64,000 nucleotides of DNA from Achromobacter denitrificans NBRC 15125 (lineage in GTDB: Bacteria > Pseudomonadota > Gammaproteobacteria > Burkholderiales > Burkholderiaceae_B). Every line of letters starts with the position of its first letter. Within the stretch, counting starts at the first letter, position 1. Below are positions 16,165 through 55,118 of this stretch, piece by piece. Location of the stretch: positions 1 through 64,000 of the forward strand of contig NZ_BCTQ01000002.1 of the NCBI RefSeq assembly GCF_001571365.1, in the 5' to 3' direction. Made by a program: the position numbers and the translations under genes. The notes under the pieces were generated by a model. The model ran no database searches. It was not told where the DNA came from and saw only the letters and a program-made list of their open reading frames with translations.

Positions 16165-16218
16165 CCGCTCGCCGCCGAGCGCGGCGGCCAGGCCCGGCGG
16201 CCGCCGGGCCGGAACGCT

Positions 16219-33782: not shown

Positions 33783-33963
33783 GATGGGTGGAGCGCGAGA
33801 TCCTCTCCACGAGAACCCCGTTCTCCAGCGCGCGAAACCCATGCGGCCGTGGGCAGATTGTGTTCGGCATCGGCCGGAAAACAATCGATTGCAGCCGCAT
33901 GGGTTTCGCGCGTTGGAGAGTTGTGTTCTAGCTTAAGAACTCTCGCGCTCCACCCATCCTACG
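33778..33963. repeat. long imperfect inverted repeat between convergent genes
   Basis: Two 70-bp arms (33778-33847 and 33894-33963) around a 46-bp centre. The outer ~22 bp (starting CGTAGGATGGGTGGAGCG) and inner ~25 bp (CGCGCGAAACCCATGCGGC) of each arm are near-identical in inverted orientation; the middle has diverged. The centre carries its own GATTGT/ACAATC dyad. The arms contain the stop codons of both folA and the convergent MocR gene, so it can end both transcripts. The core resembles the GTAGG-TGGGTGGAGCG / CGAAACCCA class of repetitive palindromes seen in many proteobacteria. Confidence 0.85.
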
Positions 33964-35374
33964 CCCCCGCGTTGCGCATGAAGCGCCAGAGCGCCGGCGC
34001 CTCCGAATAGGCCACGTTGAAACGCACCCAGGGCGTGTCGGCCTCGTCCGCCTCGAAATAGGAACCCGGCGCCAGCCAGATGCCGTCCTTGAGCGCCAGC
34101 TCGGCCAGGCCGTTGGCGCCGCGTTCGCGCCATTGCCCGCCCACCTTGGCCCACAGGAACAGGCCGCCCTGCGGCCGTCCGTAGATCTCGAAGCCGTGCT
34201 GCTCCATCTGCCGGGCTACCCCGGCATGAGCCTCGGCCAGCCGCTCGCGGGTGCGGGCGATGTGGGCGCGGTAGCGCCCTTCGCGGATCACCTGGTGCAC
34301 GATGCGCTCCATGATCTCCGGCGAGGTCAGGCCCACCGCCATCTTGGTGCGCGCGATGTCGCGGGTGAGGTCCCGGTGGGCGACCACGTAGCCCACCCGC
34401 ACCGACGGACTGATGACCTTGGAATAGCCGCCCAGGTAGACCACCCGCCGGGTGCCGTCCAGGGCGGCGAGCATCGGCGTCACCCCGGGCGCCAGTTCGC
34501 GCGAGATGTCGTCCTCGATCACCCACAGCCCATGGCGCTCGGCCGCCTGCAGGATGCGGAACGCGTTGGCCATGCCGATGCTGGCGCCCGACGGATTCTG
34601 CAAGGCGGTATTGACGAACAGGGCGCGAGGCCGGTGCCGGGCCGCCGCGGCGTCCAGCGCGTCGCAATCCAGCCCGTCCACCGTGCGCGGCACGGCCACC
34701 GCCCGCAAGCCCGCCAACCGCAGCATCTGCAACAGGTTGGCGTAGGCCGGCTGTTCCACCACCACGGTATCGCCGGGCCGCAGCAGCGTGCGGATCACCA
34801 TGTCCAGGCCATGCGTGACGCCCTGGGTCAGCAGGACCTGCGACGCCTCCACCTCCATGCCCTGCGCGCCGAGGCTGGCCGCGATGGTCTCGCGCAGCGG
34901 CGCGTAACCGTAGGGATGGCCGTAGTTGGCGATGCGCATGGCCGGCACCCGCCCCATGTGGCGCAGCGCCATGTGCAGACCTTCTTCGTTCAGCCATTCG
35001 CCCGGCAGCCATCCGCAGCCCGATTTGATGGGGATGGAGTGGTCCGCGAAGATGTCCGACAGCAGCCACCCCGCGTTCAGGCGGGGCGGCTCCCACGACA
35101 GCGGCTGGCGCGGGCGCGCCGGCGCGTCGGGCGTGGCGACCCGGTAGCCCGCGCCCGGCCGGGCCGCCAGCCAGCCCAGCGACACGAGCCGGCTGTAGGC
35201 GCTGGCCACGGTGAACGTGCTGACATCGTGCAGGCGCGCGAACTCGCGCACCGAGGGCAGGGACATGCCCGGGCGGAGCGTCTGCGCCTCGATGGCCTGC
35301 AGGATGGCGGCGACCAGTTGCTCGACCAGGGTCGGGGCCTGGCCGCGGGCGCGGTTGGGCTGGAAGTCGATCAC
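33959..35374 (-). CDS. MocR-type regulator (GntR HTH + aminotransferase domain)
   Basis: Transcription factor of 471 aa. The GntR-type winged HTH spans ~12-80 (LPSVREFARLHDVSTFTVASAY). A class I aminotransferase-like domain spans ~105-465 with the PLP lysine K319 (GGYSKVISPSVRVGY) and NPSG (260-263). MocR proteins sense amines or PLP adducts and act on divergent genes. Divergent from the omega-amino-acid aminotransferase and mmsA, across a CTRTACAGTT repeat, so it most likely controls beta-alanine catabolism. Confidence 0.93.
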   Translation of the reverse strand: MIDFQPNRARGQAPTLVEQLVAAILQAIEAQTLRPGMSLPSVREFARLHDVSTFTVASAYSRLVSLGWLAARPGAGYRVATPDAPARPRQPLSWEPPRLNAGWLLSDIFADHSIPIKSGCGWLPGEWLNEEGLHMALRHMGRVPAMRIANYGHPYGYAPLRETIAASLGAQGMEVEASQVLLTQGVTHGLDMVIRTLLRPGDTVVVEQPAYANLLQMLRLAGLRAVAVPRTVDGLDCDALDAAAARHRPRALFVNTALQNPSGASIGMANAFRILQAAERHGLWVIEDDISRELAPGVTPMLAALDGTRRVVYLGGYSKVISPSVRVGYVVAHRDLTRDIARTKMAVGLTSPEIMERIVHQVIREGRYRAHIARTRERLAEAHAGVARQMEQHGFEIYGRPQGGLFLWAKVGGQWRERGANGLAELALKDGIWLAPGSYFEADEADTPWVRFNVAYSEAPALWRFMRNAGA

Positions 35375-35535: not shown

Positions 35536-36861
35536 ATGAACGCCCCCGCCGCCTTGCCCGACCTGTCCCATCTCTGGATGCCCTTCACTGCCAACAAGCA
35601 GTTCAAGGCCCATCCGCGCATGCTGGCCACGGCCAAAGGCATGTACTACACCTCGGCCGACGGGCGCCAGGTGCTGGACGGCACCGCCGGCCTGTGGTGC
35701 GTCAACGCCGGCCACGGCCGCGAAGAAATCGTCGCCGCCATCGCCAAGCAGGCGGGCGTCATGGATTACGCCCCGGGCTTCCAGCTGGGCCATCCGCTGG
35801 CCTTCGAAGCCGCCACGGCCGTCGCCAGCCTGATGCCGCAGGGCCTGGACCGCGTCTTCTTCACGAATTCGGGTTCCGAGTCCGTCGATACCTCCCTGAA
35901 AATCGCCCTGGCCTATCACCGCGCCCGCGGGGAAGGCCAGCGCACCCGCCTGATCGGCCGCGAGCGCGGCTACCACGGCGTGGGCTTCGGCGGCATCTCG
36001 GTCGGCGGCATCTCGACCAACCGCAAGACGTTCTCCGGCGCGCTGCTGCCGGCCGTCGATCACCTGCCCCACACGCACAACCTGGAGCAGAATGCCTACT
36101 CCAAGGGCCAGCCCGCCTGGGGCGCCCAACTGGCCGACGAGCTGGAGCGCATCATCGCCCTGCACGACGCGTCCACCATCGCCGCGGTGATCGTCGAGCC
36201 CATGGCCGGCTCCACCGGCGTGCTGATCCCGCCCAAGGGCTACCTGGAGAAGCTGCGCGAGATCACCTCCAAGCACGGCATCCTGCTGATTTTCGACGAA
36301 GTCATCACCGCCTACGGCCGCCTGGGCGCCGCCACCGCCTCCGAGTTCTTCGGCGTGACGCCGGACATCATCGCCATGGCCAAGGGCGTCAGCAACGCGG
36401 CCGTGCCCGCGGGCGCGGTCGCCGTCAAGCGCGAGGTGCATGACGCCATCGTGAACGGCCCCGCCGGCGGCATCGAGTTCTTCCACGGCTACACCTATTC
36501 GGCGCACCCGCTCGCGGCCGCCGCCATCCTGGCCACGCTGGACATCTACCGCCGCGAGGACCTCTTCGGCCGCGCCCGCAAGCTGTCCGGCGCCTTCCAG
36601 GAAGCCGCCCACTCGCTCAAGGGCGCGCCTCACGTCATCGACGTGCGCAACCTGGGCCTGGTCAGCGGCATCGAACTGGCCCCGCGCGCGGGCGCGCCGG
36701 GCGCCCGCGCCGCCGAAGTCTTCCAGAAGTGCTTCGACAGCGGCCTGATGGTGCGCTACACCGGCGACATCATCGCCATCTCGCCCCCGCTGATCATCGA
36801 GGAAGCCCAGATCGGGCAGATCTTCGAACAAATCGGCAAGATCCTGAAGGAAGTGGCATGA
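35536..36861 (+). CDS. omega-amino acid:pyruvate (beta-alanine) aminotransferase
   Basis: Class III PLP aminotransferase of 441 aa moving the amino group of beta-alanine (or another omega-amino acid) to pyruvate, giving malonate semialdehyde and alanine. ATG at 35536 behind GGAG; a 20-codon upstream extension is not family-like. D254-E255 and PLP lysine K283 ([14 protein letters not shown]) are present, and the N-terminal [12 protein letters not shown] segment is typical of this subgroup. Its stop overlaps the mmsA start (ATGA). Confidence 0.93.
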
Positions 36862-38351
36862 AGACGATCCCGCATTTCATCAACGGCCAGCGTTACGACG
36901 GCAGCAGCAGCCGCTACGCCGACGGCTTCAATCCGGCCACCGGCGAAGTCACTTCCTCCATCCCGCTGGCCTCCAACGAGGACGTGGCGCTGGCCGTGGC
37001 CTCGGCCAAGGCCGCCTTCCCGGCCTGGTCGGAAACCCCCGCGCTCAAGCGCGCCCGCATCCTGTTCAACTTCAAGGCGCTGCTCGACGAGCACCAGGAC
37101 GAACTGGCCGAGCTGATCACGCGCGAACACGGCAAGGTCTTCTCCGACGCCAAGGGTGAAGTCACCCGCGGCATCGAGATCGTCGAATTCGCCTGCGGCA
37201 TTCCCCATCTGCTCAAAGGTCAGTATTCCGACCAGATCGGCGGCGGCATCGACAACTGGAGCATGCGCCAGGCGCTCGGCGTGGTGGCCGGCATCACGCC
37301 CTTCAACTTCCCCATGATGGTGCCGTGCTGGATGTTCCCGGTGGCGATCGCCTGCGGCAACACCTTCGTGCTCAAGCCCTCGGAACGCGATCCCTCGGCC
37401 TCGCTGCGCCTGGCCGAACTGCTGACCGAAGCCGGCCTGCCCCCGGGCGTTTTCAACGTCGTGCAGGGCGACAAGCAGGCGGTCGACGCGTTGATCGCTC
37501 ATCCTGACGTCGAGGCCCTGTCCTTCGTCGGATCGACCCCCATCGCCGAATACATCTATTCCGAAGGCACCCGCCGCGGCAAGCGCGTGCAGGCGCTGGG
37601 CGGCGCCAAGAACCATCTGGTCGTGATGCCCGACGCCGACCTGGACCAGGTCACCGACGCGCTGATGGGCGCGGCCTACGGCTCGGCCGGCGAACGCTGC
37701 ATGGCCATTTCGGTGGCCGTGGCGGTGGGCGATGTGGCCGACGAGCTGATCAAGCGCCTGACTCCGCGGGTGCAGTCCCTGATCGTCAAGGACGGCATGC
37801 AATCGGACGCGGAAATGGGTCCGCTGGTGACCTCGCAGCATCGCGCCAAGGTCATGGGCTACATCGAAGACGGCATCGCCGCCGGCGCCGACATGGTGGT
37901 GGACGGACGCGGCCTGAAGGTTGCCGGCAACGAGCGCGGCTTCTTCCTGGGCGGCACCTTGTTCGACAACGTGAAGCCGTCGATGAACATCTACCGTGAA
38001 GAAATCTTCGGGCCGGTGCTGTGCATCGTGCGCGTGCCGGACTTCGCCACCGCGGTGGACCTGATCAACGCGCATGAATTCGGCAACGGCGTGGCCTGCT
38101 TCACGTCCGACGGCGGCGTGGCGCGCGCTTTCGCCCGCCAGATCAAGGTCGGCATGGTCGGCATCAACGTGCCGATCCCCGTGCCCATGGCCTGGCATTC
38201 CTTCGGCGGCTGGAAGCGTTCGCTGTTCGGCGACCACCACGCCTACGGCGAGGAAGGCATCCGCTTCTATTCGCGCTACAAGAGCGTGATGCAGCGCTGG
38301 CCGGACAGCATCGCCAAGGGCGCGGAATTCACGATGCCTGTGGCTAAGTGA
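36858..38351 (+). CDS. mmsA: CoA-acylating methylmalonate/malonate-semialdehyde dehydrogenase
   Basis: NAD-dependent aldehyde dehydrogenase of 497 aa that converts malonate semialdehyde to acetyl-CoA (or methylmalonate semialdehyde to propionyl-CoA). Catalytic Cys281 in [25 protein letters not shown] and the [12 protein letters not shown] region identify the MMSDH subgroup; no general-base Glu is expected. Translationally coupled to the aminotransferase, giving a two-step beta-alanine to acetyl-CoA pathway. Confidence 0.95.
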
Positions 38352-38354
38352 GGG

Positions 38355-38425
38355 TCCCCCCCCGAAGCGCGGCGCGCTTCCCCCCCAGGGGGGCGTCGCT
38401 GCGGACCGGCGGAGCCGGATCCGCG
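38355..38425. repeat. GC-rich extragenic palindrome cluster
   Basis: A GAAGCGC-GGC-GCGCTTC palindrome flanked by C/G runs (about 38364-38380) is followed by a second stem, GCGGA-CCGGC with GCCGGATCCGC (38401-38424, one bulge). The style is that of repetitive extragenic palindromes. Related G/C palindromes occur at ~30782-30804 and 53870-53911. Confidence 0.55.
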
Positions 38426-38477
38426 CGACCCGGCTTGGGGGAGATGTTGCCAGTTTGGGGAAGGCGAGTAGTGTGAT

Positions 38478-38505
38478 GGGCGCGGGGTGATTCCCGCGCC
38501 CTTTT
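38478..38505 (+). terminator. rho-independent terminator between mmsA and the M81 operon
   Basis: A 9-bp stem (GGGCGCGGG/CCCGCGCCC; 38478-38486 with 38493-38501), then TTTT. It ends only 27 bp before the next start codon, so it lies where that operon's leader should be. Confidence 0.78.
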
Positions 38506-38531
38506 ACATTGGAACGACAGGGGGAAATCCG

Positions 38532-40040
38532 ATGCGCATCGGGATAGGCGGTTTTCAGCACGAAACCAATACGTTCGCGCCGTCGCGCGCCGCTTGGGAG
38601 GACTTCGCCGACAAGGGCGGGGGCTGGCCCAGGCTGGTCAGCGGGCCCGCGATGTTCCAGGCGGTCGCGGGCGCCAACATCCCGGTGGCCGGGTTCATCG
38701 AGGCGATGGAACAGCACACGCTGCTGCCCACCACGTGGGCGGCGGCCAGCCCCTCGGGCCCCGTCACCCGGGACGCCTTCGAACGCATCAGCGCCATGAT
38801 CCTGCAAGGCCTGGCCCAGGCCGCGCCGCTGGACGGCGTCTACCTGGACCTGCATGGCGCGATGGTGACCGAACACCTGGACGACGGCGAAGGCGAATTG
38901 CTCAGGCGCGTGCGCGAACTGGTGGGGCCGGACGTGCCCGTGGTGGCCAGCCTGGACCTCCACGCCAATGTCACGCGCGCCATGGTCCGCCATGCCGACG
39001 CCCTGGTCTGTTATCGGACCTATCCGCACATCGATATGGCCGAGACCGGCCAGCGCGCCGCGGAGCTGCTGCACAAACGGCTGGCGGGCATGCCGCGGCC
39101 CAGCGTGGCGCTGCGTTCCCTGCCCTACCTGATTTCCCTGTGCTGGCAGTCCACCGACATCGAACCCTCGCGCAGCCTGTACCGGCTGGTGGGCGAGATC
39201 GAAGCGCGGGGCGTCCTCAGCCTGTCTTTCGCCACGGGTTTTCCCGCGGCGGACTTCCCCGAATGCGCGCCCACGGTGTGGGCCTACGGCGCCCCCCAGG
39301 CCGAAGCCGACGCCGCGGCCGACGAAATGACCCGCGCCGTGCTCGATGCGGAACGCGACTTCGGCGGCCGGCTCTACACGCCCGACGAAGCCGTGCAGGA
39401 AGCCTTGAGGCTGGCGCGGGACGCCAGCAAGCCGGTGGTCATCGCCGACGCGCAGGACAACCCCGGCGCGGGCGGCAGCTCGGACACCACCGGGGTGCTG
39501 CGCGCCCTGATCCGCCACGATGCGCGCGACGCCGCCATCGGCTTGATCGTCGACCCGCAGGCCGCGTTGGCCGCCCACCGCGCCGGCGTCGGCAAGAAGG
39601 TCAGGATTGCACTGGGTGGACATTCGGGTATTCCCGACGACGAACCCCTGGACACCGAATTCATTGTCGAGAAAACTTCGGATGGGCGTTTCGATACGCA
39701 CGGCGCGTTCTACCGCGGATTCCACATGGACCTGGGCCCCAGCGCCTGCCTGCGCATCGGCGGCGTGCGCATCATCGTCGCCTCCAACAAGGTGCAGATG
39801 GCCGACCAGGAGATGTTCCGTTTCGCGGGCGTGGAGCCGCGCCGCGCGGCGATCCTGGTGGTCAAGAGCTCGGCGCATTTCCGCGCGGATTTCACGGCCA
39901 TCGCGCAAACGATCCTGGTATGCGCGGCCCCCGGCTCCATGCTGATGGATGCGGCAAAACAACCATGGACACGGTTGCGTCCGGGCATCAGAATGGCGCC
40001 TTGCGGACCGGTCTTTTCCGGCCGGTCGGCTACTGCCTGA
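38532..40040 (+). CDS. M81/MlrC-family metallopeptidase (first copy)
   Basis: Predicted zinc peptidase of 502 aa of the MlrC group, whose founder finishes breakdown of the linearised cyanobacterial peptide microcystin. ATG at 38532 behind GGGGGAA. Motifs: HETNTF (10-15), LDLHGAM (105-111), LDLHAN (141-146), YPHID (164-168) and DNPGAGGSSDTT in the C-terminal MlrC domain; these His/Asp clusters are the probable metal ligands. About as long as the second copy at 46713 but clearly diverged. The frame runs on with an unusual basic tail. First gene of the transporter operon. Substrate unknown. Confidence 0.88.
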   Translation: MRIGIGGFQHETNTFAPSRAAWEDFADKGGGWPRLVSGPAMFQAVAGANIPVAGFIEAMEQHTLLPTTWAAASPSGPVTRDAFERISAMILQGLAQAAPLDGVYLDLHGAMVTEHLDDGEGELLRRVRELVGPDVPVVASLDLHANVTRAMVRHADALVCYRTYPHIDMAETGQRAAELLHKRLAGMPRPSVALRSLPYLISLCWQSTDIEPSRSLYRLVGEIEARGVLSLSFATGFPAADFPECAPTVWAYGAPQAEADAAADEMTRAVLDAERDFGGRLYTPDEAVQEALRLARDASKPVVIADAQDNPGAGGSSDTTGVLRALIRHDARDAAIGLIVDPQAALAAHRAGVGKKVRIALGGHSGIPDDEPLDTEFIVEKTSDGRFDTHGAFYRGFHMDLGPSACLRIGGVRIIVASNKVQMADQEMFRFAGVEPRRAAILVVKSSAHFRADFTAIAQTILVCAAPGSMLMDAAKQPWTRLRPGIRMAPCGPVFSGRSATA

Positions 40041-40120
40041 ACCTCGCACGCCGCCACGCGCGGCGGGTTAACGACGCAGCGGCGCAATACGCCGCTCATT
40101 ACGCATCAAGGGGAAGATTC

Positions 40121-41686
40121 ATGCTGAAGTTCGTCCGAGCCGCCGCGTTGGCGGGCGCAACCCTGATGATGGCTCACGGCGCCTATGCCGAGACCGTCAT
40201 CAAGACGGTGATGCACTCGCCTCTGCGCCTGACCGATCCGCATGCCACCACCGCGTACATCACGACGTGGCACGGCTACATGATCTACGACACCCTGCTG
40301 GCCACCGACGCCGACAACAAGATCCAGCCGCAGATGCTGGAGAAATGGGAAGTCTCGCCCGACGGCAAGACCTACACCATGACGCTGCGCGACGGCCAGA
40401 AATGGCATGACGGCAAGCCTGTCACCTCGGAAGACTGCGTGGCCTCGATCAAGCGCTGGGCCGCCGGCGACGGCATGGGCCGCACGCTGCTGAAGTTCAC
40501 CGACAAGATCGAAGTCATCGACGACAAGAACTTCCGCATCGTCATGAAGGAGCCCACCGACCTGGCGCTGCGCGCCCTGTCCAAGCCCACCGGCACCGCC
40601 CCCTTCATGATGCCCAAGCGCATCGCGGACCAGGCCATCGGCCAGCCCATCACCGACATGACCGGCTCGGGCCCGTTCAAGGTCATCGAGTTCAAGCCCG
40701 GCGTGAAGACGGTCTACGCCAAGAATGCCGACTACGTGCCGCGCAAGGAACCCGCCAGCGGCCTGGCCGGCGGCAAGGTCGTCAACGTGGACAAGGTCGA
40801 ATGGGATGTGATGCCGGACGCGCTGACCACCGCCAACGCGCTGCTGGGCGGCGAGATCGACTTCGTCGAGCAGTTCCCGTACGACCTGCTGCCGATGATC
40901 GAAGGCAACAAGGACCTGAAGGAAGAGTCGCTCAGCCCGGTCGGCTACTTCACGATGTACCGCTTCAACTTCAAGTACCCGCCCTTCAACAACAAGAAGG
41001 TCCGCCAGGCCGCAATGTACGCCATCGGCCAGGAAGACGTGATGAAGGCGCTGGTCGGCAATCCCAAGTACTGGAAGACCTGCGCATCGCTGTGGGGCTG
41101 CGGCACGCCGCTGGAAAGCGACATCGGCAAGGACATGGTCGTGCCGTCCAACATCGAGAAGGCCAAGGCGCTGCTGAAGGAAGCGGGCTACGACAACACC
41201 CCCATCCTGGTGATGCACGCCACCGACGTGGGCACGCTCTCGGCCCAGCCGGTCGTGATGGCCCAGGCGCTGCGCAAGGCCGGCTTCAACGTCAACCTGG
41301 CCGCGATGGACTGGCAGAGCGTGGCCACCCGCCGCGCCTCCAAGGCCGCGCCGGCCGAAGGCGGCTGGAACATCCACAACACCAACTGGTACGCCACCGA
41401 CGTGATGGATCCGGTCCGTTCGGCCCCGGCTGCCGCCAATGGCGACAACGCGTGGTTCGGCTGGCCCGACTTCCCGCAGATCGAGGAATTGCGCACGAAG
41501 ATGGCGCTGACCTCCGACCCCGCGGAACAGAAGAAGATCGCCGAGGAAGTGCAGCGCATCGGCATCGATGAAGGCCTGTACGTGCCGCTGGGCCAGATGT
41601 CCGTGCCCACGGTGTATTCGACCAAGCTGTCGGGCCTGGTGCATGCGCCGGTCTTCGCATTCTGGAACGTCAAGAAAGCCCCTTGA
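40121..41686 (+). CDS. periplasmic solute-binding protein (family 5, peptide/opine type)
   Basis: Secreted binding protein of 521 aa for the adjacent ABC importer. ATG at 40121 behind AAGGGGAAG. The signal peptide (1-23) ends AYA/ET with no lipobox Cys, so it is soluble in the periplasm. SBP_bac_5 features: MLEKWEVSPDGKTYTMTLRDGQKWHDGKPVT and a long C-terminal lobe. The family binds di-/oligopeptides, opines or modified peptides; the ligand cannot be read from sequence. Confidence 0.93.
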   Translation: MLKFVRAAALAGATLMMAHGAYAETVIKTVMHSPLRLTDPHATTAYITTWHGYMIYDTLLATDADNKIQPQMLEKWEVSPDGKTYTMTLRDGQKWHDGKPVTSEDCVASIKRWAAGDGMGRTLLKFTDKIEVIDDKNFRIVMKEPTDLALRALSKPTGTAPFMMPKRIADQAIGQPITDMTGSGPFKVIEFKPGVKTVYAKNADYVPRKEPASGLAGGKVVNVDKVEWDVMPDALTTANALLGGEIDFVEQFPYDLLPMIEGNKDLKEESLSPVGYFTMYRFNFKYPPFNNKKVRQAAMYAIGQEDVMKALVGNPKYWKTCASLWGCGTPLESDIGKDMVVPSNIEKAKALLKEAGYDNTPILVMHATDVGTLSAQPVVMAQALRKAGFNVNLAAMDWQSVATRRASKAAPAEGGWNIHNTNWYATDVMDPVRSAPAAANGDNAWFGWPDFPQIEELRTKMALTSDPAEQKKIAEEVQRIGIDEGLYVPLGQMSVPTVYSTKLSGLVHAPVFAFWNVKKAP

Positions 41687-41712
41687 CGGGCGCGTAGTAC
41701 AGGGGGAATTAC

Positions 41713-42654
41713 ATGCTGGCATTTGTCTCACGCCGGCTCCTCGCGACCATCCCCGTTCTGGTGATGGTCGCGGTGGTGGTCTTCGCGATATTGCGTTTCA
41801 GCCCGGGCGATCCGGCCATCATCATGGCGGGCGACGGCGCCACGCCCGAGCGCATCGTCCAGATACGCCAGACGATGGGCCTGGACCAACCGGTCATCAA
41901 GCAGTTCTTCATCTGGGGCGGCAAGCTCCTGCAAGGCGACCTGGGCACTTCGCTCATGTCGGGCGTGCCGGTCACCAAGCTCATTGGGCAGCGCCTTGAA
42001 CCGTCGCTCAGCCTGGCGGTGCTGACCCTGGCCTTCACGCTGATCGTCGCCATCCCGCTGGGCATACTCGCGGCATGGCGCCAGGGCAAGCTGCTGGACC
42101 GCGCGGTGATGGGCTTTTCGGTGCTGGGCTTCTCGGTGCCCGTGTTCGTCACCGGCTACCTGCTCATCTGGCTCTTCGCCATCAAGCTGGGCTGGTTCAA
42201 CGTGCAGGGCTACGTGCCGCTGGACAAGGGCTTCTGGCCCTACCTGCACCGCCTCATCCTGCCGTCGCTGGCCCTGTCCACGGTCTACGTCGCGCTGATC
42301 GCGCGCATCACGCGCACCAGCGTGATCGAAGTCATGGGAGAGGATTTCATCCGGACGGCCCGCTCCAAGGGCCTGGGCGAAACCGGCGTCCTGCTGGGGC
42401 ATGCCCTGCGCAACGCCGCCGTGCCCATCGCCACCGTCGTGGGCCTGGGCATCGCGCTGCTGATCAGCGGCGTGGTCGTGACCGAATCGGTATTCAACAT
42501 CCCCGGCCTGGGCCGGCTGGTGGTGGAAGCCGTGCTGGCCCGCGACTACCCGGTCATCCAGGGCCTGACGCTCTTCTTCGCGTTCGTCTACGTGTTCATC
42601 AATCTGGTTGTCGATTGCGCCTACACGGTGTTCGACCCGCGGATCAGGTACTAG
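41713..42654 (+). CDS. ABC transporter permease, DppB type
   Basis: Inner-membrane permease of 313 aa with six predicted transmembrane segments (first at ~9-30) and the DppB-type N-terminal region FSPGDPA. The EAA-type loop (EVMGEDFIRTARSKGLGE) contacts the ATPase. It follows the binding protein by 26 bp and is paired with the next permease. Confidence 0.94.
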   Translation: MLAFVSRRLLATIPVLVMVAVVVFAILRFSPGDPAIIMAGDGATPERIVQIRQTMGLDQPVIKQFFIWGGKLLQGDLGTSLMSGVPVTKLIGQRLEPSLSLAVLTLAFTLIVAIPLGILAAWRQGKLLDRAVMGFSVLGFSVPVFVTGYLLIWLFAIKLGWFNVQGYVPLDKGFWPYLHRLILPSLALSTVYVALIARITRTSVIEVMGEDFIRTARSKGLGETGVLLGHALRNAAVPIATVVGLGIALLISGVVVTESVFNIPGLGRLVVEAVLARDYPVIQGLTLFFAFVYVFINLVVDCAYTVFDPRIRY

Positions 42655-42663
42655 GGGCCCACC

Positions 42664-43554
42664 ATGCAAACGCCAACCGACGCCGCCGATCTGCCTGGCG
42701 GCGGCAATCCCCAAGTCACGGCCTGGCGGCAAGTCCGCCAGGGGCTCAAGAGCTGGCCCGTCATGCTGGCGCTGGTGGTGCTGGCGACGATCGTCGCCAT
42801 CGCGCTGTTCGCGCCCCTGCTGGGCACCGTCGATCCCACGTTCATCGATCCCGGCGCCCGCCTGAAACAGCCCTTCTCCGACTACCTCTTCGGCACCGAT
42901 GCCTTCGGCCGCGACGTCTGGTCGCGCGTGGCCTACGGCGCCCGCGTCTCGCTCATCGCGGGCCTGGGCGCGGCGGTCGTCAGCGTCGCCATCGGGTTGG
43001 TCGTCGGCGTGATCGCGGGCTGGTTCCGCTCGCTGGACGGACTGATCATGCGCACCATGGACGCCATCATGGCCATTCCCGGCATCCTGCTGGCGATCGC
43101 CCTGGTGTCCGTGACCGGCGCCAGCCTCACCACCGTGCTCGTGGCCATCACCATTCCGGAAATCCCCCGGGTGGTGCGGCTGGTCCGCGGCCAGATCCTG
43201 ACGGTGCGCGGCGAGCCCTACGTCGAGGCGGCGCTGGCCCTGGGCACGCCGCTGCCGCTGTTGCTGTGGCGGCACATGGTGCCCAGCACGATCGCGCCGC
43301 TGACGGTGCAAGGCACTTACGTCTTCGCGTCCGCGATGCTGACCGAGGCCATCCTCAGCTTCCTGGGCGCGGGCATCCCGCCCGAGATCGCCTCCTGGGG
43401 CAACATCATGTCCGAAGGCCGCATGTACTTCCGCATGCTGCCCGGGCTGATTCTCTTCCCGGGCCTGTTCCTGTCGCTGACCGTTCTCAGCGTGAACATC
43501 CTGGGCGATGCCCTGCGCGATGCGCTGGACCCGAAAATGGTGCGGAGGATCTGA
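42664..43554 (+). CDS. ABC transporter permease, DppC type
   Basis: Inner-membrane permease of 296 aa with about six transmembrane segments. Typical DppC features are the FGTDAFGRDVWSRVAYGAR segment and the EAA loop region EPYVEAALALGTPLP. Its stop overlaps the start of the ATPase gene (TGATG). Confidence 0.94.
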   Translation: MQTPTDAADLPGGGNPQVTAWRQVRQGLKSWPVMLALVVLATIVAIALFAPLLGTVDPTFIDPGARLKQPFSDYLFGTDAFGRDVWSRVAYGARVSLIAGLGAAVVSVAIGLVVGVIAGWFRSLDGLIMRTMDAIMAIPGILLAIALVSVTGASLTTVLVAITIPEIPRVVRLVRGQILTVRGEPYVEAALALGTPLPLLLWRHMVPSTIAPLTVQGTYVFASAMLTEAILSFLGAGIPPEIASWGNIMSEGRMYFRMLPGLILFPGLFLSLTVLSVNILGDALRDALDPKMVRRI

Positions 43555-45245
43555 TGCCCTACACCCCCACTCCCCCCGCGGGCGACACCTCGTCCGCCAT
43601 CCTGGCCATCCGCAACCTGTCGGTGGAAGTCGCGGGCGCGGGCAACCGCGTCGTGCGCAACCTCAGCCTGGACGTGCACGCCGGCGAAACGGTCTGCGTC
43701 GTCGGCGAATCGGGCTCGGGCAAGTCCGTCACGTCCCTGGCCGTCATGGGCCTGCTGCCGCCGGGCGTGCTGTCGGTCAACGCCGGCTCGATCCGCGTGG
43801 AAGGCGAGGACGTGGTCACCGCCACGCAGCGGCGCCTGCGCGAAATGCGCGCCACCCGCATGGCGATGGTGTTCCAGGAGCCCATGACCGCGCTGAACCC
43901 CGTGCACACGGTGGGCAAGCAGGTCGACGAAGTGCTGCGCCTGCACCGCAAGAAGATGTCGGCGGCGCAACGCCGCGAGAAGGTGCTGGAGATGTTCCGG
44001 TCGGTGCACCTGCCCGACGTCGAACGCATCTTCGACTCCTATCCGCACCAGCTTTCCGGCGGCCAGCGCCAGCGCATCGTCATCGCCATGGCGCTGATCC
44101 TGGAACCCAAGCTGCTCATCGCCGACGAGCCCACCACGGCGCTGGACGTCACCACGCAGAAGCAGATCCTGGCGCTGATCAAGGAACTGCAGGTCAAGCA
44201 CCAGACCGCCGTGCTGTTCATCACCCATGATTTCGGCGTCGTGGCGGAGATCTCCGACCGCATCGTCGTGATGAACCGCGGAGACCTGGTCGAAAGCGGC
44301 TCCCGCCACGAGATCCTGGCCGAACCCAAGCAATCCTACACCCGGCGCCTGGTGTCGTCGGTTCCCAGCCTGGTGCCCTCGCGCCGCGAGGCGCCCGACG
44401 GCATGCCGGTGCTGCACGTCAAGGGGCTGGGCCGCACCTACGGCGGCAAGCGTTCGGTGCTGTCGCGCAAGGCCGCGCACAATATCGTCGCGGCCTCCGA
44501 CGTGAACCTGACCCTGCGCAAGGGCGAGATCCTCGGCATCGTGGGCGAATCCGGCTCGGGCAAATCCACGGTGGCGCGCTGCATCGTGCGCCTGATCGAG
44601 CCCACCGCCGGCCACATGATGATGGGCGGCGAAGACCTCAGCACCCTGTCCGGCTCGGCGCTGCGCCCCGTGCGCCGGCGGATCCAGATCGTGTTCCAGG
44701 ATCCCTATCGCTCGCTGAACCCGCGCCGCACCGTCGGCGAATCCATCATCGAGGGCCTGCTCAACTTCGGCGTGCCCCGCGACCAGGCCTTGAAGCGCGC
44801 CGGCGAAACCCTGACGGTGGTGGGCCTGAGCCCGGACGCGATGCGCCGCTACCCGCACCAGTTCTCCGGCGGCCAGCGCCAGCGCATCTGCATCGCGCGC
44901 GCCCTGGTCATGGACCCGGAGATCCTGGTCGCCGACGAAGCCGTGTCGGCGCTGGACGTCTCGGTGCAGGCCCAGGTGCTGGAACTGCTGGAGCAGGTGC
45001 GCCAGCGCACCGGCGTGGGCGTGCTGTTCATCACCCATGACCTGCGCGTGGCGGCGCAAATCTGCGACACCATCATGGTCATGCAGCGCGGCAAGGTCGT
45101 CGAGACCGGCTCCGCCGAGACCGTGCTGACCGAGCCGCGCCATGAATACACCCGGGCCCTGATCGATGCCGCGCCCGGGCGGGACTGGGACTTCCGCAAT
45201 TTCCGGCCGATCTCGGCCGGCCTGGCGTCGGCCCCCGCGCCCTGA
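43554..45245 (+). CDS. fused double ABC ATPase (DppD-DppF type)
   Basis: Both nucleotide-binding domains of the importer in one 563-aa chain. NBD1 has Walker A GESGSGKS (51-58), signature LSGGQRQR and Walker B LLIADEP. NBD2 has a second GESGSGKS, signature FSGGQRQR and ILVADEA. Each half keeps the C-terminal oligopeptide-transporter extension. In-frame start ATG at 43554 overlaps the permease stop. Such fusions resemble the GsiA glutathione importer architecture. Confidence 0.94.
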   Translation: MPYTPTPPAGDTSSAILAIRNLSVEVAGAGNRVVRNLSLDVHAGETVCVVGESGSGKSVTSLAVMGLLPPGVLSVNAGSIRVEGEDVVTATQRRLREMRATRMAMVFQEPMTALNPVHTVGKQVDEVLRLHRKKMSAAQRREKVLEMFRSVHLPDVERIFDSYPHQLSGGQRQRIVIAMALILEPKLLIADEPTTALDVTTQKQILALIKELQVKHQTAVLFITHDFGVVAEISDRIVVMNRGDLVESGSRHEILAEPKQSYTRRLVSSVPSLVPSRREAPDGMPVLHVKGLGRTYGGKRSVLSRKAAHNIVAASDVNLTLRKGEILGIVGESGSGKSTVARCIVRLIEPTAGHMMMGGEDLSTLSGSALRPVRRRIQIVFQDPYRSLNPRRTVGESIIEGLLNFGVPRDQALKRAGETLTVVGLSPDAMRRYPHQFSGGQRQRICIARALVMDPEILVADEAVSALDVSVQAQVLELLEQVRQRTGVGVLFITHDLRVAAQICDTIMVMQRGKVVETGSAETVLTEPRHEYTRALIDAAPGRDWDFRNFRPISAGLASAPAP

Positions 45246-45272
45246 CGCACCGATCCGCCTACAGGAACCGAA

Positions 45273-46682
45273 ATGCCGCAACCGCATGAACTGTCCGCCG
45301 TGGAACTGCTCCAGGCATACCGCGCCAGGACGCTGTCGCCCGTCGAAGTCACCCGTTCCGTGCTGGAGCACATCGCGCGCTGGGAGCCGCGGCTCAAGGC
45401 CACCTATGCGCTGGACCCCGAAGGCGCGATGGCGATGGCGCGGGCCTCCGAGGCCCGCTGGATGAAGGGCGAACCCCAATCCACCGGCGGCTACTCGCTG
45501 GACGGCGTGCCGTCCACCATCAAGGAAAACATTGCCACTCGCGGCGTGCCGGTGCCGCTGGGCACGGCCGCCACCGACCTGACGCCGGCCGCGGCCGACG
45601 CGCCGCCCGCGGCCCGCATGCGCGAAGCCGGCGCGGTGCTGCTGGGCAAGACCACCATGCCCGACTACGGCATGCTGTCCTCCGGGCTGTCCAGCTTCCA
45701 TGAGTTGACGCGCAATCCCTGGGATCTGTCCAAGAACCCGGGCGGCTCCAGCGCCGGCGCGGGCGCCGCCGCCGCGGCGGGTTACGGGCCCCTGCACATC
45801 GGCACCGACATCGGCGGTTCGGTGCGGCTGCCGGCGGCCTGGTGCGGCATCGCCACGCTCAAGCCCAGCCTGGGCCGCATTCCCATCGACCCGCCCTTCA
45901 TGGGCCGCTGCGCCGGCCCTATGACCCGCACGGTCGCCGACGCCGCGCTCATGATGGGCGTGCTGTCGCAGCCCGACGCGCGCGACCACATGAGCCTGCC
46001 CTTCCAGGAGTTCGACTGGCTGAACCTGGAGCGCGACGTGCGCGGCCTGCGCATCGGCCTGCTGATGGACGCGGGCTGCGGCCTGCCGGTAGACCCCGAA
46101 ATCCGCGAGGCGGTGGAAGCCGCCGCGCGCGCCTTCGAGGCCGCGGGGGCCATCGTGACCCCCATGCAGCCCTGGATGACCCCGGACATGCTGGACGGCG
46201 TGGACCGCTTCTGGCGCACCCGCTCGGCGCTCGACCTGGCCGCCCTGCCCGAAGCGCGCCGCGCCAAGATCCTGCCTTTCATCCGCGCCTGGGCCGAAAG
46301 CGGCGGGGGCCAGTCCGGCGAGGACGTGTTCCGCAGCTACTACGAGACCCTCAACGTCCGCGCGCGGACCGTCGCGGCCTGCGCGCCCTACGACTACGTG
46401 CTTTCGCCGGTGGCGCCGGTGGTGGCGTACAACGCCGAATGGCCCTCGCCCACCAACGAGGTCGCCACGACGATGCACCACATCGGCTTCACCCTGCCCT
46501 TCAATATGAGCGAGCAGCCCGCCGCCTCCGTCAATTGCGGCTACACCAAGGCCGGGCTGCCCATCGGGCTGCAGATCGCCGGCCCGCGCTTCGACGACCT
46601 GGGCGTGCTGCGGATCGCGCGCGCCTGGGAACGGCTGCGCCCCGCGCAACATCCCTGGCCCCAGCCTCCCGAGGCGGCCTGA
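45273..46682 (+). CDS. amidase-signature hydrolase
   Basis: Amidase of 469 aa with the Ser-cisSer-Lys triad K84 (TIKEN), S159 (NPGGSSAGA) and S183 (GTDIGGSVRLP). The 75- and 24-residue spacings equal those of fatty-acid amide hydrolase. No signal peptide, so it acts in the cytoplasm after uptake. In the operon it could deamidate the imported compound or cleave a side chain before the M81 peptidases act. Substrate unknown. Confidence 0.9.
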   Translation: MPQPHELSAVELLQAYRARTLSPVEVTRSVLEHIARWEPRLKATYALDPEGAMAMARASEARWMKGEPQSTGGYSLDGVPSTIKENIATRGVPVPLGTAATDLTPAAADAPPAARMREAGAVLLGKTTMPDYGMLSSGLSSFHELTRNPWDLSKNPGGSSAGAGAAAAAGYGPLHIGTDIGGSVRLPAAWCGIATLKPSLGRIPIDPPFMGRCAGPMTRTVADAALMMGVLSQPDARDHMSLPFQEFDWLNLERDVRGLRIGLLMDAGCGLPVDPEIREAVEAAARAFEAAGAIVTPMQPWMTPDMLDGVDRFWRTRSALDLAALPEARRAKILPFIRAWAESGGGQSGEDVFRSYYETLNVRARTVAACAPYDYVLSPVAPVVAYNAEWPSPTNEVATTMHHIGFTLPFNMSEQPAASVNCGYTKAGLPIGLQIAGPRFDDLGVLRIARAWERLRPAQHPWPQPPEAA

Positions 46683-46712
46683 CCCTTCCACAAGCACCCC
46701 ACAGGAATCCCC

Positions 46713-48188
46713 ATGCGTTGGCTTTTGGCAATGATCAAGCACGAGACGAACACGTTTTCGCCCGTGCCGACCCCGCTGGAACGTTTCTTCCGCGGCAATC
46801 CCGAGATCCTGGCTGGCGAGCGCGCCATCAAGGCCTACGAGAACACCGACAGCGGCCTGGGCGGCTACATCGAGGTGGCGCGCCTCGCAGGCGCCGAGAT
46901 GGTGGTGCCCGTGGCGGCGGAGTCCTGGCCCAGCGGCCCGGCCAGCGCCGAAACCCATGAACGGCTGTGCAAACTGATCCTGGACGAGGTCAAGCGCGGC
47001 GGCTTCGACGCCATCCTGCTGGACCTGCACGGCGCCATGGTGGCCGAGGGCGTGGACGACGCCGAAGGCGACCTGCTGCGCCGCCTGCGCGAAATCGATC
47101 CCGCGACGCCGGTGGCGGTCACGCTCGACATGCATGCCAACATCTATGACGACATCGTCAAGAACGCCACCGTCATCAGCGGCTTCCACACCTATCCCCA
47201 CGTGGACATCCGCGAATCGGGCGTGCGCGCGGCCAACGTGATCGTTCGCACGCTGAAGGGAGAGATCAAGCCCGTGATGGCCTGGGCCAACAAGCCCATG
47301 CTGCCCCACATCATGTGCCAGGGCACCCACGCCGCGCCCAACAAGCCCTTGCAGGAACGCTGCAAGGAACTGGAGGCCGGCGGCGTGCTGGCCGCCTCGG
47401 TCTTCGTGGGCTTTCCTCACGCCGACATCCACGAGGCCGGCCTGAGCGCCGTGGTCTGTACGGACGGCAAGCTGGCCGAGGCCGAGCAGTACCGCGACGA
47501 GCTGCTGGAACGGGCCTGGACGGACCGCGCCGACTGGGTGTTCCATCCGGAACCCCTGGCGCCCACCATCGCGCGCGCCAAGGCCATCGAGCAGGGGCCG
47601 GTGGTGCTGCTGGACCACTACGACAACACGGGATCGGGCGGCACGATGGACACCACGGCCGTCCTGGCCGAAGTGCTGCGCCAGGAGCTGGACAACGTCG
47701 TCTTCTACGCCATCTGCGACCCGCAGGCCGCGCTGGAGGCGGCCGCGGCCGGCGTGGGCCGGACCATCACGCTCAAGCTGGGCGGCAAGATGGCCATGCC
47801 CGCCATCAAGGAAGCGAGCGAGCCGCTGGAAGTCACCGGCCGCGTCAAGCTGGTGTTCGACGGCGTCTACCTCAACCGCGGCCCCATGTACCGCGGCGTG
47901 CGCAACGATACCGGCCTGACCGTGGTGATCGACACGGGCCGCGTGGAAATCGTGGTGGTCTCGCGCCACCAGGAGCCCTTCGACGTCAATTGCCTGCTGT
48001 CGGCCGGCATCGATCCGCTGCAAAAGCGCTATGTGGTCCTGAAGAGCCGTGTGCACTGGCGCGCGGGCTTCTCCGACATGGCCACGGCGGTCATCGAATG
48101 CACGGGCGTGGGGGTCACCACCTCCGATTACGGCCAGCTCGACTTCCAGAAGGTGCGCCGCCCGATCTACCCGCTGGATCCGCTTTAA
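46713..48188 (+). CDS. M81/MlrC-family metallopeptidase (second copy)
   Basis: Predicted zinc peptidase of 491 aa. Same conserved clusters as the first copy: HETNTF (10-15), LDLHGAM (103-109), LDMHAN (138-143), YPHVD (161-165) and YDNTGSGGTMDTT. Overall divergence is high, so this is an old paralogue, not a recent duplication. Last gene of the operon, followed by a good terminator. Having two such enzymes suggests sequential or stereospecific cuts of one substrate; this is inference. Confidence 0.9.
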   Translation: MRWLLAMIKHETNTFSPVPTPLERFFRGNPEILAGERAIKAYENTDSGLGGYIEVARLAGAEMVVPVAAESWPSGPASAETHERLCKLILDEVKRGGFDAILLDLHGAMVAEGVDDAEGDLLRRLREIDPATPVAVTLDMHANIYDDIVKNATVISGFHTYPHVDIRESGVRAANVIVRTLKGEIKPVMAWANKPMLPHIMCQGTHAAPNKPLQERCKELEAGGVLAASVFVGFPHADIHEAGLSAVVCTDGKLAEAEQYRDELLERAWTDRADWVFHPEPLAPTIARAKAIEQGPVVLLDHYDNTGSGGTMDTTAVLAEVLRQELDNVVFYAICDPQAALEAAAAGVGRTITLKLGGKMAMPAIKEASEPLEVTGRVKLVFDGVYLNRGPMYRGVRNDTGLTVVIDTGRVEIVVVSRHQEPFDVNCLLSAGIDPLQKRYVVLKSRVHWRAGFSDMATAVIECTGVGVTTSDYGQLDFQKVRRPIYPLDPL

Positions 48189-48212
48189 TCCCCCTCCGCT
48201 CCCCATGACCCG

Positions 48213-48241
48213 GCCGGCGCGACAGCGCCGGCTTTCATTTT
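48213..48241 (+). terminator. terminator of the M81-ABC-amidase operon
   Basis: An 8-bp stem GCCGGCGC/GCGCCGGC (48213-48220 with 48225-48232), GACA loop, then TTTCATTTT. Confidence 0.8.
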
Positions 48242-48421
48242 GAAAACTTCTGTAACTGGGAGCGCGCTCAAGCGACCTGCCGCCTCGGTATACTCGCCGC
48301 GGGCCTTACAGGCCGATGAATGCGCGTATTCCGATGACGGCCGCCCGCAAGGGCGTCCCGCGGCACCGAAGCCGCCGCGGCCACCGGGTATGACTCGACA
48401 ATCAACGACATAAGCAGAACG

Positions 48422-50371
48422 ATGAAAAAGAGCGTAGCGATCACCCTTGGCGTGGTCATAGTGGGAGCAGGAAGCTGGGTAGGCGCCACGTGGTACACCG
48501 GCAAGCGCATCGAGGAAAGCTCGCAGCGCCACCTGGCCGAGGCCAACGAGAAGCTGGCCAAGATCACGCCGCTGTTCGGCCTGCGCATCGATCAGTTGAA
48601 GTACGAGCGCGGCCTGTTCTCGACGCAGGCGCGTTATGGCCTGTCGTTCGTCAAGAGCGACAACACCCCCGACGGCATGCCCGCCGGCATGGTCGAATTC
48701 GACGCCTCCATCGAGCACGGCCCCTTCCCCAAGAGCGCCCTGGCGCGCGGCGCGATCGCCCCCAAGCTGGCCTTCGTCCACAGCGAAATCGCCAAGACGG
48801 ACAATATCAAGGAGCTGTTCGAGCTGACCAATAACGTCTCGCCGCTGACTGGCGACGCCATCGTCAGCTTCGGCGGCTTCGCCACGTCGACCGCCCGGAT
48901 CGCCCCGGTGAAGATCGCCCACGAGGGCAACGCGGTCGACTTCAGCGGCATGACGATCAACGGCACGTTCGACCGCTCGCTGCAGGCCGTCACGGCGCAT
49001 GCCCTGATGGAAACGCTCTCGGTGAACGGCGAGAAGTCGAACGATCCCATCAAGATGACCATGTCCGGCCTGACGATGGACGTCGACAGCCGCATGGGCA
49101 AGTTCGGCCTGTCCATCGGCGACTCGAACATCAAGATCAAGCGCATCGACGTCCTCAAGCCGGACGTCGACGTCAAGGTCTCGCTGGACAACCTGGGCTA
49201 CGGCGTCAAGCTGGCCGAGGACGACAAGACCATCAACGCCGAGGCGACCTACCGGACCGGCGACATCACCCTGAACGACGTGGCGCTGGGCAACGGCCAG
49301 GCCGTCCTCAAGGTGGCCAAGCTCGACGGCGCCGCCGTCAAGCAGCTGTCGGACACCTACAACCAGATCGTGCGCCAGTACATGATGGGCGCCAGCGACG
49401 AGGGCCTCAAGGACGAACAGTTCGACGTGCTGCTGGACAACGCCGGCAAGCTGCTCAACGGCAACCCGTCGTTCAGCATCGATCCGATCAGCTGGAAGAC
49501 CGCCAAGGGCGAAAGCAAGCTGACCTTCGCGCTCGACCTGGCCAACCCGCCCAACGTGAAGGACCTGACTCCCCAGGAGATCGTGGTCAAGGCCATCAAG
49601 CAGATCGACGCCACGCTCGTCATCTCCAAGCCCATGGTGCGCGACCTGATCGTGCAATACGCCATGAAGAAGGAAGGGATGGACGCCGAAAAGGCCGGAG
49701 TCCAGGCCGACGAGCAGATGCGCTCGGTCTCCGGCATGGCCGAAATGCTCAACGTCGGCAAGAACGACGGCGACAACATCGTCGGCAAGTTCCACTTCGC
49801 CGACGGCATGGGCGACCTGAACGGCACGAAGATCCCGGCTGAAGAACTGTTCGCCGGCCTGCTCGGCGCGGCCGGCATGGACGGCATGGACGAAGAAGGC
49901 GAGCCCGAGGGCCTGGACATGGATCCGGAAGAACCCGCGGCCGCCGCGGTGCCGTCCGACCTGATGCAGGATTTCGACCTCGACACCGTCAACGCCATGC
50001 TGAGCGACATGTCGTACTCGCCCCGCAAGGAAGACGGCGAGGAAGGCCCGGTGCTGGTCCTGCAGCCCAACAATACCGGCGCCAGCGACCTGCGCGTCGA
50101 GTTCCTGTGCAACGACTTCACGGAAAAGTGCCACGACCTCGTCGTGACCGCGACCTACAGCAGCAAAAAGCCGATGTCGCTCAAGGCCATCAATTCCTGG
50201 AACCAGGAATACCGCTGGACGCGCGCCTACCTGGACGACAAAAGCCAGGCCGTGCTGCAGATGGACATGAATTCCGAAGGCGGAATCGGCAAGGAAAACC
50301 TGCAGATCCTGCTCAACACGTTCTTCAGCATCGCCGAAGACTTCTCCGCCGCCGGAAAGGCGGCCAAGTAA
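48422..50371 (+). CDS. YdgA-family DUF945 protein
   Basis: Exported or inner-membrane-anchored protein of 649 aa. A single hydrophobic segment (4-23) is followed by a large periplasmic region rich in beta-strand-like repeats, beginning KRIEESSQRHLAEANEKLAK and containing the DUF945 core. It has an acidic Glu/Asp-rich stretch at ~490-512. The function of the family is not established; envelope roles are suspected. Monocistronic with a strong terminator. Confidence 0.85.
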   Translation: MKKSVAITLGVVIVGAGSWVGATWYTGKRIEESSQRHLAEANEKLAKITPLFGLRIDQLKYERGLFSTQARYGLSFVKSDNTPDGMPAGMVEFDASIEHGPFPKSALARGAIAPKLAFVHSEIAKTDNIKELFELTNNVSPLTGDAIVSFGGFATSTARIAPVKIAHEGNAVDFSGMTINGTFDRSLQAVTAHALMETLSVNGEKSNDPIKMTMSGLTMDVDSRMGKFGLSIGDSNIKIKRIDVLKPDVDVKVSLDNLGYGVKLAEDDKTINAEATYRTGDITLNDVALGNGQAVLKVAKLDGAAVKQLSDTYNQIVRQYMMGASDEGLKDEQFDVLLDNAGKLLNGNPSFSIDPISWKTAKGESKLTFALDLANPPNVKDLTPQEIVVKAIKQIDATLVISKPMVRDLIVQYAMKKEGMDAEKAGVQADEQMRSVSGMAEMLNVGKNDGDNIVGKFHFADGMGDLNGTKIPAEELFAGLLGAAGMDGMDEEGEPEGLDMDPEEPAAAAVPSDLMQDFDLDTVNAMLSDMSYSPRKEDGEEGPVLVLQPNNTGASDLRVEFLCNDFTEKCHDLVVTATYSSKKPMSLKAINSWNQEYRWTRAYLDDKSQAVLQMDMNSEGGIGKENLQILLNTFFSIAEDFSAAGKAAK

Positions 50372-55104: not shown

Positions 55105-55118
55105 TGAATCTTCCGCCC

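Follow-up and report, generated by a model that had tools for sequence, protein, structure and literature searches.

Seven adjacent genes in the stretch of DNA analysed here (64,000 nucleotides of Achromobacter denitrificans NBRC 15125, hereafter the window) appear to form a locus for the import and cytoplasmic hydrolysis of a small peptide or amide, releasing beta-alanine or a similar beta-amino acid for the neighbouring AptA and MmsA enzymes. We put the probability of this reading as a whole at about 0.4. Uptake and probable intracellular hydrolysis of an amide, as proposed in the initial annotation of this DNA, are well supported by the predicted families and conserved residues of the proteins, and beta-alanine is the most likely freed product, judging from the gene neighbourhood.

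The seven genes, all complete and all on the + strand, were confirmed at the positions in Table 1. The gaps from M81a to M81b are, in order, 80, 26, 9, −1, 27 and 30 nt, bearing out the short spacing and overlap described earlier. Directly upstream lie aptA and mmsA, which overlap by 4 nt and both score above their family cut-offs; for aptA, a start at 35536 is favoured over one at 35476, and the best PDB match is the beta-alanine--pyruvate transaminase 4b98 (E 7e-139). These two genes are a beta-alanine degradation pair, comparable to the aminotransferase and dehydrogenase genes bauA and bauC of Pseudomonas aeruginosa, and their adjacency is the best clue to the product; the initial annotation went no further than the operon and left them out. 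In the published description of the Cupriavidus necator aptA-mmsA1 genes, an aminotransferase and a dehydrogenase of the same kinds are likewise accompanied by a MocR homologue divergent from the pair (PMC6572756); the importer, amidase and two M81 genes that follow the pair set the window apart from that arrangement.

Table 1. Positions of the genes and hairpins of the locus, numbered along the window.
Feature	Position	Strand	Basis or remark
MocR-type regulator, divergent from aptA	33959..35374	-	type assigned from sequence, not by library
aptA, beta-alanine:pyruvate (omega-) aminotransferase	35536..36861	+	NCBIfam NF052567, 722 bits (cut-off 500)
mmsA, CoA-acylating (methyl)malonate-semialdehyde dehydrogenase	36858..38351	+	TIGR01722, 703 bits (cut-off 448.5)
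Hairpin with T run, mmsA-M81a gap	38478..38501	+	30 nt before M81a start
M81a, MlrC-like zinc hydrolase (predicted)	38532..40040	+	PF07364, 359 bits; PF07171, 203 bits; zinc ligands kept
SBP, family 5 solute-binding protein	40121..41686	+	PF00496, 262 bits
DppB-type permease	41713..42654	+	PF00528, PF19300
DppC-type permease	42664..43554	+	PF00528, PF12911
DppDF, fused DppD-DppF ATPase	43554..45245	+	two ABC_tran and two oligo_HPY stretches
Amidase-signature hydrolase (predicted)	45273..46682	+	NCBIfam NF005450, 783 bits (cut-off 458)
M81b, MlrC-like zinc hydrolase (predicted)	46713..48188	+	PF07364, 313 bits; PF07171, 171 bits; zinc ligands kept
Hairpin after M81b, possible weak terminator	48212..48233	+	poor T tail

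The Pfam domains confirmed a complete peptide-class ABC importer. A family 5 SBP, two permeases and two ATPase domains, the latter fused in one 563-aa protein, lie in one gene run, and the SBP_bac_5 domain, the paired permeases and the fused ATPase are shared with Dpp/Opp-type peptide importers. By eye, the SBP has a signal-like N-terminus; its nearest solved relative by sequence is 8vdx. No NCBIfam model passed its cut-off for the SBP or the permeases, so the ligand of the SBP cannot be named. The amidase matches PF01425 as well as NF005450, the single listed model above its cut-off and one named merely 'amidase', and aligns over its full length with the amidase signature family (GatA, peptide amidase, 6-aminohexanoate cyclic dimer hydrolase). 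Aligned with GatA (2df4), the protein shows a matching Lys and two matching Ser residues, which presumably form the Ser-cisSer-Lys triad that had been assigned to this protein. Solved relatives include the cyclic-dimer hydrolase 3a2p (114 bits); a search for a close relative with known substrate found none.

M81a and M81b each score above the gathering thresholds of both PF07364 and PF07171, placing them in peptidase family M81, and sequence matches to 7ylq and 3iuu place the M81 fold in both. The match to MlrC (microcystinase C of Sphingomonas sp. ACM-3962, PDB 7ylq) spans most of the length, at 31% identity for M81a and 30% for M81b. In the alignment both retain the zinc ligands E39, D167, H169 and H191 of MlrC (described in PMC9982164 and PMC4810221), along with N41, H133, F260, D332, D341 and K464, and the HETNTF, DLHGAM, H-A-N and YPH-D motifs quoted earlier were found in both. 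Inspection by eye showed no signal peptide in either. Two diverged M81 enzymes do flank the operon, as first described: they are 34% identical and belong to different subfamilies, and this identity and their separate clades rule out a recent tandem duplication. With seven M81 genes in the host genome, having such a gene is no rarity here; other M81 genes of the genome lie near other transporter types.

Conservation of the seven-gene order, which had been suggested as a check, holds within Achromobacter, where it was found in 23 of 23 complete loci (two more are cut by contig ends). Nine of nine Bordetella loci keep everything except the amidase, for which the same nine genomes contain no relative above 37% identity. 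Loci of these two genera were found using M81a, and so cannot reveal its absence. Two loci of the same family, L308 and L322, have the order aptA-mmsA-SBP-DppBCDF-M81b, with neither M81a nor amidase. In L322 the transporter and M81b come directly after mmsA, the longest ORFs being spaced by 72, 112, 12, 63 and 6 nt; the mmsA of L308 is merely 57% identical. M81a cannot simply be called lost from these two genomes, since more distant M81a-type proteins occur elsewhere in them (60% identity in G730, 54% in G782). The amidase is missing from both and from G765, with best matches of at most 37%. A further locus from the same phylum, L232, reads SBP-DppB-DppC-DppDF-M20-M81b, with an M20 protein in place of the window's amidase and an M81b that is 61% identical. 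The core at this locus is SBP-DppBCDF-M81b, to which M81a and the amidase seem to have been added.

Adjacency of aptA-mmsA within Achromobacter and Bordetella is weak evidence for a functional link, because the order thyA-folA-mocR-aptA-mmsA is conserved in both genera anyway, and it was dropped as proof; mocR adjoins aptA in 32 of their 34 loci, the remaining two being cut by contig ends. Around aptA in the same family, 15 of 20 loci are without the module (two of these cut at about 5 kb), and mmsA was seen in just three of the 15. Wider sampling, with adjacency defined as an AptA at least 45% identical, on the same strand and within 1.5 kb, placed AptA beside 22 of 54 M81b-type loci (GTDB families f3, f16, f18, f23, f29 and f39). 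In 15 of the 22, mmsA is present too, each time as aptA-M81-mmsA (f18, f23, f29 and f39): the pair encloses an M81b relative in families of Burkholderiales other than that of the window. Two further loci have mmsA only, and 30 of the 54 have neither gene. None of 30 M81a loci, searched over flanks reaching up to 8.1 kb, has AptA. In the tree, M81 proteins flanked by aptA group in a clade of their own, apart from the window's M81b, and the link is therefore one of subfamily kinship; strict orthology was rejected. Among the sampled loci from the order's other families, the five closest to M81b (L153-L157) lack both aptA and the transporter alongside.

General scavenging of peptides or N-acyl amino acids, with aptA-mmsA as a mere neighbour and no special tie to beta-alanine, is a realistic alternative, although we would not put it at even odds. 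It is favoured by Alphaproteobacteria, in which M81a co-occurs with a similar transporter and an amidase and, in L081 and L089, the two loci examined one gene at a time, with two M20 peptidases (assigned from the library in L081 and partly by eye in L089), by the M20 protein of L232, and by the mixed surroundings of the host's other M81 genes. It leaves unexplained the aptA-M81-mmsA order in four other families together with its absence for M81a, and the position of the L322 transporter and M81b straight after mmsA. The initial annotation had favoured a pathway devoted to a single amide, whether cyclic, modified or containing D-amino acids, for which all seven genes are needed. The fixed order in Achromobacter, the relation of the amidase to 3a2p and the persistence of M81a-type proteins away from the locus would suit such a pathway. 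Its indivisibility does not survive the missing amidase in Bordetella and in G782, G730 and G765, or the L308 and L322 loci, which keep the transporter and M81b alone with M81a off the locus. No ring-opening or D-amino acid handling gene was recognised in the operon, nothing else was found pointing to a cyclic or D-amino-acid substrate, and seven MlrC contact residues are changed in both M81 proteins; we consider this pathway improbable.

Which residues are changed also bears on degradation of microcystin-type peptides, for which M81 membership and the zinc ligands speak. Ten substrate-binding residues of MlrC were compared (N41, W59, F67, E70, F96, D341, S392, Q468, S485 and R492). M81a retains three (N41, W59 and D341) and M81b two (N41 and D341), with W59, F67 and E70 falling in a gappy region of the alignment; F67, E70, F96, S392, Q468, S485 and R492 are altered or gapped in both. 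Microcystin is therefore not the expected substrate. Scores of 192 bits (M81a) and 188 bits (M81b) against the MlrC exception model, whose cut-off is 999, argue the same way, and this reading was rejected as extremely unlikely. The operon has a binding-protein-dependent ABC importer, whereas the MlrC system uses the MFS transporter MlrD; mlrA, mlrB and mlrD are not among the operon's genes. If the substrate were N-carbamoyl-beta-alanine, or some other conjugate of a beta-amino acid derived from pyrimidines, with M81b replacing ureidopropionase, beta-alanine would likewise reach AptA-MmsA, but a Dpp-type peptide importer would be unexpected and no dihydropyrimidinase was recognised by eye in the first 70 residues of the ORFs listed for L159, L160, L162 and L165; we consider this reading very unlikely. 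L160 does contain an amidohydrolase-like ORF at 15732-16718.

Under the preferred reading, that of beta-amino acid release for AptA-MmsA, the SBP and DppB-DppC-DppDF would, from their families, import a small peptide or amide, and M81b would cut its amide bonds by means of a water bound to the zinc held by the conserved ligands. M81a and the amidase may assist M81b in Achromobacter, widening or extending the cutting. The beta-alanine or similar beta-amino acid released would pass to AptA-MmsA, which, as the gene neighbourhood suggests, would turn beta-alanine into malonate semialdehyde and acetyl-CoA. Such a release fits the activity of MlrC, which frees the N-terminal amino acid Adda, itself of the beta type. 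Recombinant MlrC is described as cleaving linear microcystin at the Adda-Glu bond while leaving the remaining hexapeptide uncut (PMC4810221). A broader generalisation, in which the M81b-type branch consists of beta-aminoacyl peptide hydrolases freeing beta-alanine or other beta-amino acids from imported peptides for AptA-MmsA, and cleavage of microcystin at Adda by MlrC is a specialised use of this chemistry, is rather unlikely. Among the papers listed by our literature search, none links M81 with transporters or beta-alanine; an Arthrobacter transcriptome study and two genome studies mention an M81 or microcystin-degradation protein, and the M81 activity work found concerned MlrC acting on an algal toxin, MlrC being the one M81 enzyme for which we found a described activity. 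The recurring M81 and beta-alanine gene neighbourhood suggests a specific and inexpensive way to assay for a natural substrate. Were it true, the proposal would give such bacteria a route to use beta-alanine conjugates, for example carnosine-like peptides, and the poorly understood M81 family a natural job.

Nothing upstream of M81a scored above the Rfam gathering thresholds, and the single promoter-like site in a scan of 36500-50000 lies inside M81a. The one terminator claimed for the operon is not established: the hairpin after M81b has a poor T tail, and the scan gave 7 terminator-like sites vs 7.6 in shuffles, which is not above chance. The better hairpin is the one before M81a, which may be a terminator or a leader attenuator. 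Of 35 sequences compared, 12 have a terminator-like hairpin in the 140 nt preceding M81a. As to co-transcription of aptA-mmsA with the M81 and transporter genes, the window has this hairpin between mmsA and M81a, which speaks against the preferred reading, and L322 has a compact run that also contains a hairpin, between mmsA and the SBP gene.

The + strand carries seven genes between 38532 and 48188, separated by 80, 26, 9, −1, 27 and 30 nt. By Pfam and NCBIfam their products are two M81 proteins (M81a and M81b), a family 5 binding protein (SBP), DppB- and DppC-type permeases, a two-domain fused ATPase (DppDF) and an amidase-signature protein. Families and gaps thus agree with the initial annotation, in which a peptide-class ABC importer and an amidase lie between two M81 genes on one strand with short spacing. 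One Lys and two Ser of the amidase align with GatA; such residues have catalytic roles in amidases of this family. Judged from the families and catalytic residues, the substrate would very probably be imported and then hydrolysed in the cytoplasm. The best solved relative of the binding protein is 8vdx, and all NCBIfam models for the binding protein and permeases were below cut-off, so the ligand is not readable from the sequence. Located 3′ of the operon is a gene for a DUF945 protein whose C-terminal domain is YbjN-like, and several Bordetella loci have two diverged DUF945 matches at this place.

Features of the M81-transporter locus and RNA elements elsewhere in the window
Feature	Position	Strand	Remarks
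aptA	35536-36861		directly upstream of operon; family score well above cut-off
mmsA	36858-38351		directly upstream of operon; 4-nt overlap with aptA; family score well above cut-off
M81a	38532-40040	+	
SBP	40121-41686	+	
DppB	41713-42654	+	
DppC	42664-43554	+	
DppDF	43554-45245	+	
amidase	45273-46682	+	
M81b	46713-48188	+	
DUF945 protein	48422-50371	+	
glycine riboswitch aptamers, two in tandem	55111-55366	-	54.9 and 49.2 bits
Betaproteobacteria toxic sRNA family RF02278	27952-28016	-	69.2 bits

The nearest solved aminotransferase to AptA is beta-alanine–pyruvate transaminase, and passages of PMC6572756 assign the aptA-mmsA1 pair of C. necator to substrates that generate beta-alanine. M81b was searched against 300 genomes from the order and 398 from the phylum, and flanks were fetched for 54 matches, comprising 48 of the 52 from the order and six from the phylum; the four omitted were in Achromobacter, and two of these belong to the window genome itself. 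AptA was found on the same strand within 1.5 kb of the M81b-type gene at 22 of the 54 loci, five of the 54 having less than 1.5 kb of DNA on one side. At 15 of these 22, mmsA lay on the opposite side, in the order aptA-M81-mmsA every time (15/15); mmsA without aptA was seen at 2/54 loci and neither gene at 30/54. The control covered 30 M81a loci with flanks reaching at most 8.1 kb, two of them having under 1.5 kb on one side; AptA was found at none (0/30), and a Dpp-type ATPase lay within 6 kb at 11. The genomes of nineteen control loci also contributed to the M81b set, and one control locus, L276, represents a paralogue from another Achromobacter. The control omits seven of 37 matches: four Achromobacter, and three loci already in the M81b set (L171, L172 and L227), where AptA was absent too. 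These three, from another family of the order, have M81a-type and M81b-type genes directly adjacent on the same strand; the Dpp transporter was not found in their fetched DNA.

Adda is a beta-amino acid. MlrC, or microcystinase C (PDB 7ylq), cuts the Adda-Glu bond and leaves the remaining hexapeptide uncut, according to passages of PMC4810221. This precedent and the neighbourhood in two separate M81b-type clades suggest that the product freed might be beta-alanine or another beta-amino acid, a tentative reading to which we give a probability of about 0.42. Each part of the locus belongs to a known family; searches of open-licence papers listed no report of the gene combination or of a link between M81 and beta-alanine.

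A tree of 66 M81 proteins, including 53 of the 54 M81b-type loci (one partial was omitted), placed 22 of 23 aptA/mmsA-linked entries in one clade (99/95). The window M81b fell in a separate clade with loci L153-L157 and L232 (100/100), and both nest in a larger clade (100/99), in a midpoint-rooted tree whose deep order is unsure owing to long branches to MlrC and to proteins P121 and P122. Several findings limit the beta-alanine reading. Beside M81b at L153-L157, aptA and the transporter were not found, and these five genomes have M81a and the transporter together elsewhere. The order thyA-folA-mocR-aptA-mmsA is conserved regardless in Achromobacter and Bordetella. In the window a hairpin and T run lie between mmsA and M81a, and by a simple rule 12 of 35 sequences have a terminator-like hairpin at this position.

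A scan of 84,980 species genomes for M81a confirmed 267 places, and the best 80 of these were retained. Among these 80, all seven genes and the upstream aptA-mmsA were present at 23 of 25 Achromobacter loci, the other two ending at contig ends (one, the metagenome bin L053, having unusually low DppC and DppDF identities). The seven-gene order is therefore fixed in Achromobacter, but it does not extend unchanged to Bordetella, where 9/9 loci among the best 80 had the same order without the amidase, the best amidase match in the nine genomes being 37% identical. All 36 other Achromobacter genomes searched contain the amidase, 34 at full length with at least 87% identity and two as fragments. A further 34 of the best 80 had DppB-DppC-DppDF-M81a-amidase and, on the opposite strand, the binding protein; all are titled Alphaproteobacteria except L110, and three (L098, L101, L102) come from nearly identical contigs of a single strain. 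L110, titled Frankia sp. RB7, has a Bradyrhizobium-like locus, and its title may be wrong. In L081 an M20 amidohydrolase separates M81a from the amidase, a second M20 peptidase adjoins the binding protein, and an enoyl-CoA hydratase comes next; L089 appears to have the same arrangement, its first M20 gene and hydratase being labelled by eye. At four betaproteobacterial loci (L073, L074, L076, L096), no module gene of at least 45% identity was found beside M81a within the fetched DNA.

The surroundings of aptA were compared at 20 loci representing 17 genera within the same GTDB family; they were picked out of the 94 genomes, among 151, that had a match. The module lay 3′ of mmsA at five, M81a being present in three; L307 and L309 are probably L056 and L068 again. 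The 15 loci without the module (two end at about 5 kb) had mmsA in only three. L308 and L322 read aptA-mmsA-SBP-DppB-DppC-DppDF-M81b, with M81a and the amidase not at the locus. L308 mmsA is only 57% identical; the longest ORFs of L322 are spaced by 72, 112, 12, 63 and 6 nt, its DppC/DppDF region being called as a single ORF. The L308 and L322 genomes, and G765, a genome of the same genus as L322's, gave no amidase match above 37%. These same genomes have M81a-type proteins at other places, with 54% identity in G782, 60% in G730 and 59% in G765. From these orders and searches, M81b stays with the transporter, the amidase is variable and M81a is sometimes elsewhere. It is unlikely that all seven genes are required, and the proposal of one pathway needing them all is not supported, the amidase having no match above 37% in the Bordetella and L308/L322 genomes and M81a being off-locus in L308 and L322. 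The M81a-type genes elsewhere leave these odds unmoved, since the claim is about the locus, and the amidase is absent from those genomes. On contig C5 of G765, about 8.3 kb separates aptA from an M81b-like match, a spacing also seen in L322's genome, and the layout is likely the same. L232, from the same phylum, reads SBP-DppB-DppC-DppDF-M20-M81b, its M81b being 61% identical.

Near aptA-M81-mmsA at L159, L160, L162 and L165 we saw by eye, varying by locus, genes resembling acyl-CoA dehydrogenase, MaoC-like dehydratase and 3-hydroxyacyl-CoA dehydrogenase, and ComB-like and PNPOx-like proteins; these surroundings are possibly a larger pathway.

By sequence M81a and M81b are M81 enzymes, 31% and 30% identical to MlrC and 34% to each other. 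Using the residues described in portions of PMC9982164 and PMC4810221, both keep the zinc ligands E39, D167, H169 and H191, and also H133, F260, D332 and K464 of MlrC. Of the ten substrate-binding residues in those portions, M81a keeps N41, W59 and D341 and M81b only N41 and D341; F67, E70, F96, S392, Q468, S485 and R492 are altered in both (gaps in the alignment around W59, F67 and E70 make the placement of these three less sure). As microcystinases both failed the residue test, with three and two of ten kept. At 7ylq position 468, Gln in MlrC, six of the seven M81 proteins of the window genome have His and one Tyr; MlrC may be the unusual member here.

The other five M81 genes of this genome stand alone or directly neighbour an MFS-like transporter, a branched-chain-type ABC set, a Bug-type binding protein or a second Dpp-type operon; the labels MFS, branched-chain and Bug were assigned by reading the sequence itself. 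This second operon (L121, contig C1, 211000-228000) comprises M81, binding protein, DppDF, DppC and DppB, and its M81 protein is about 30% identical to M81a.
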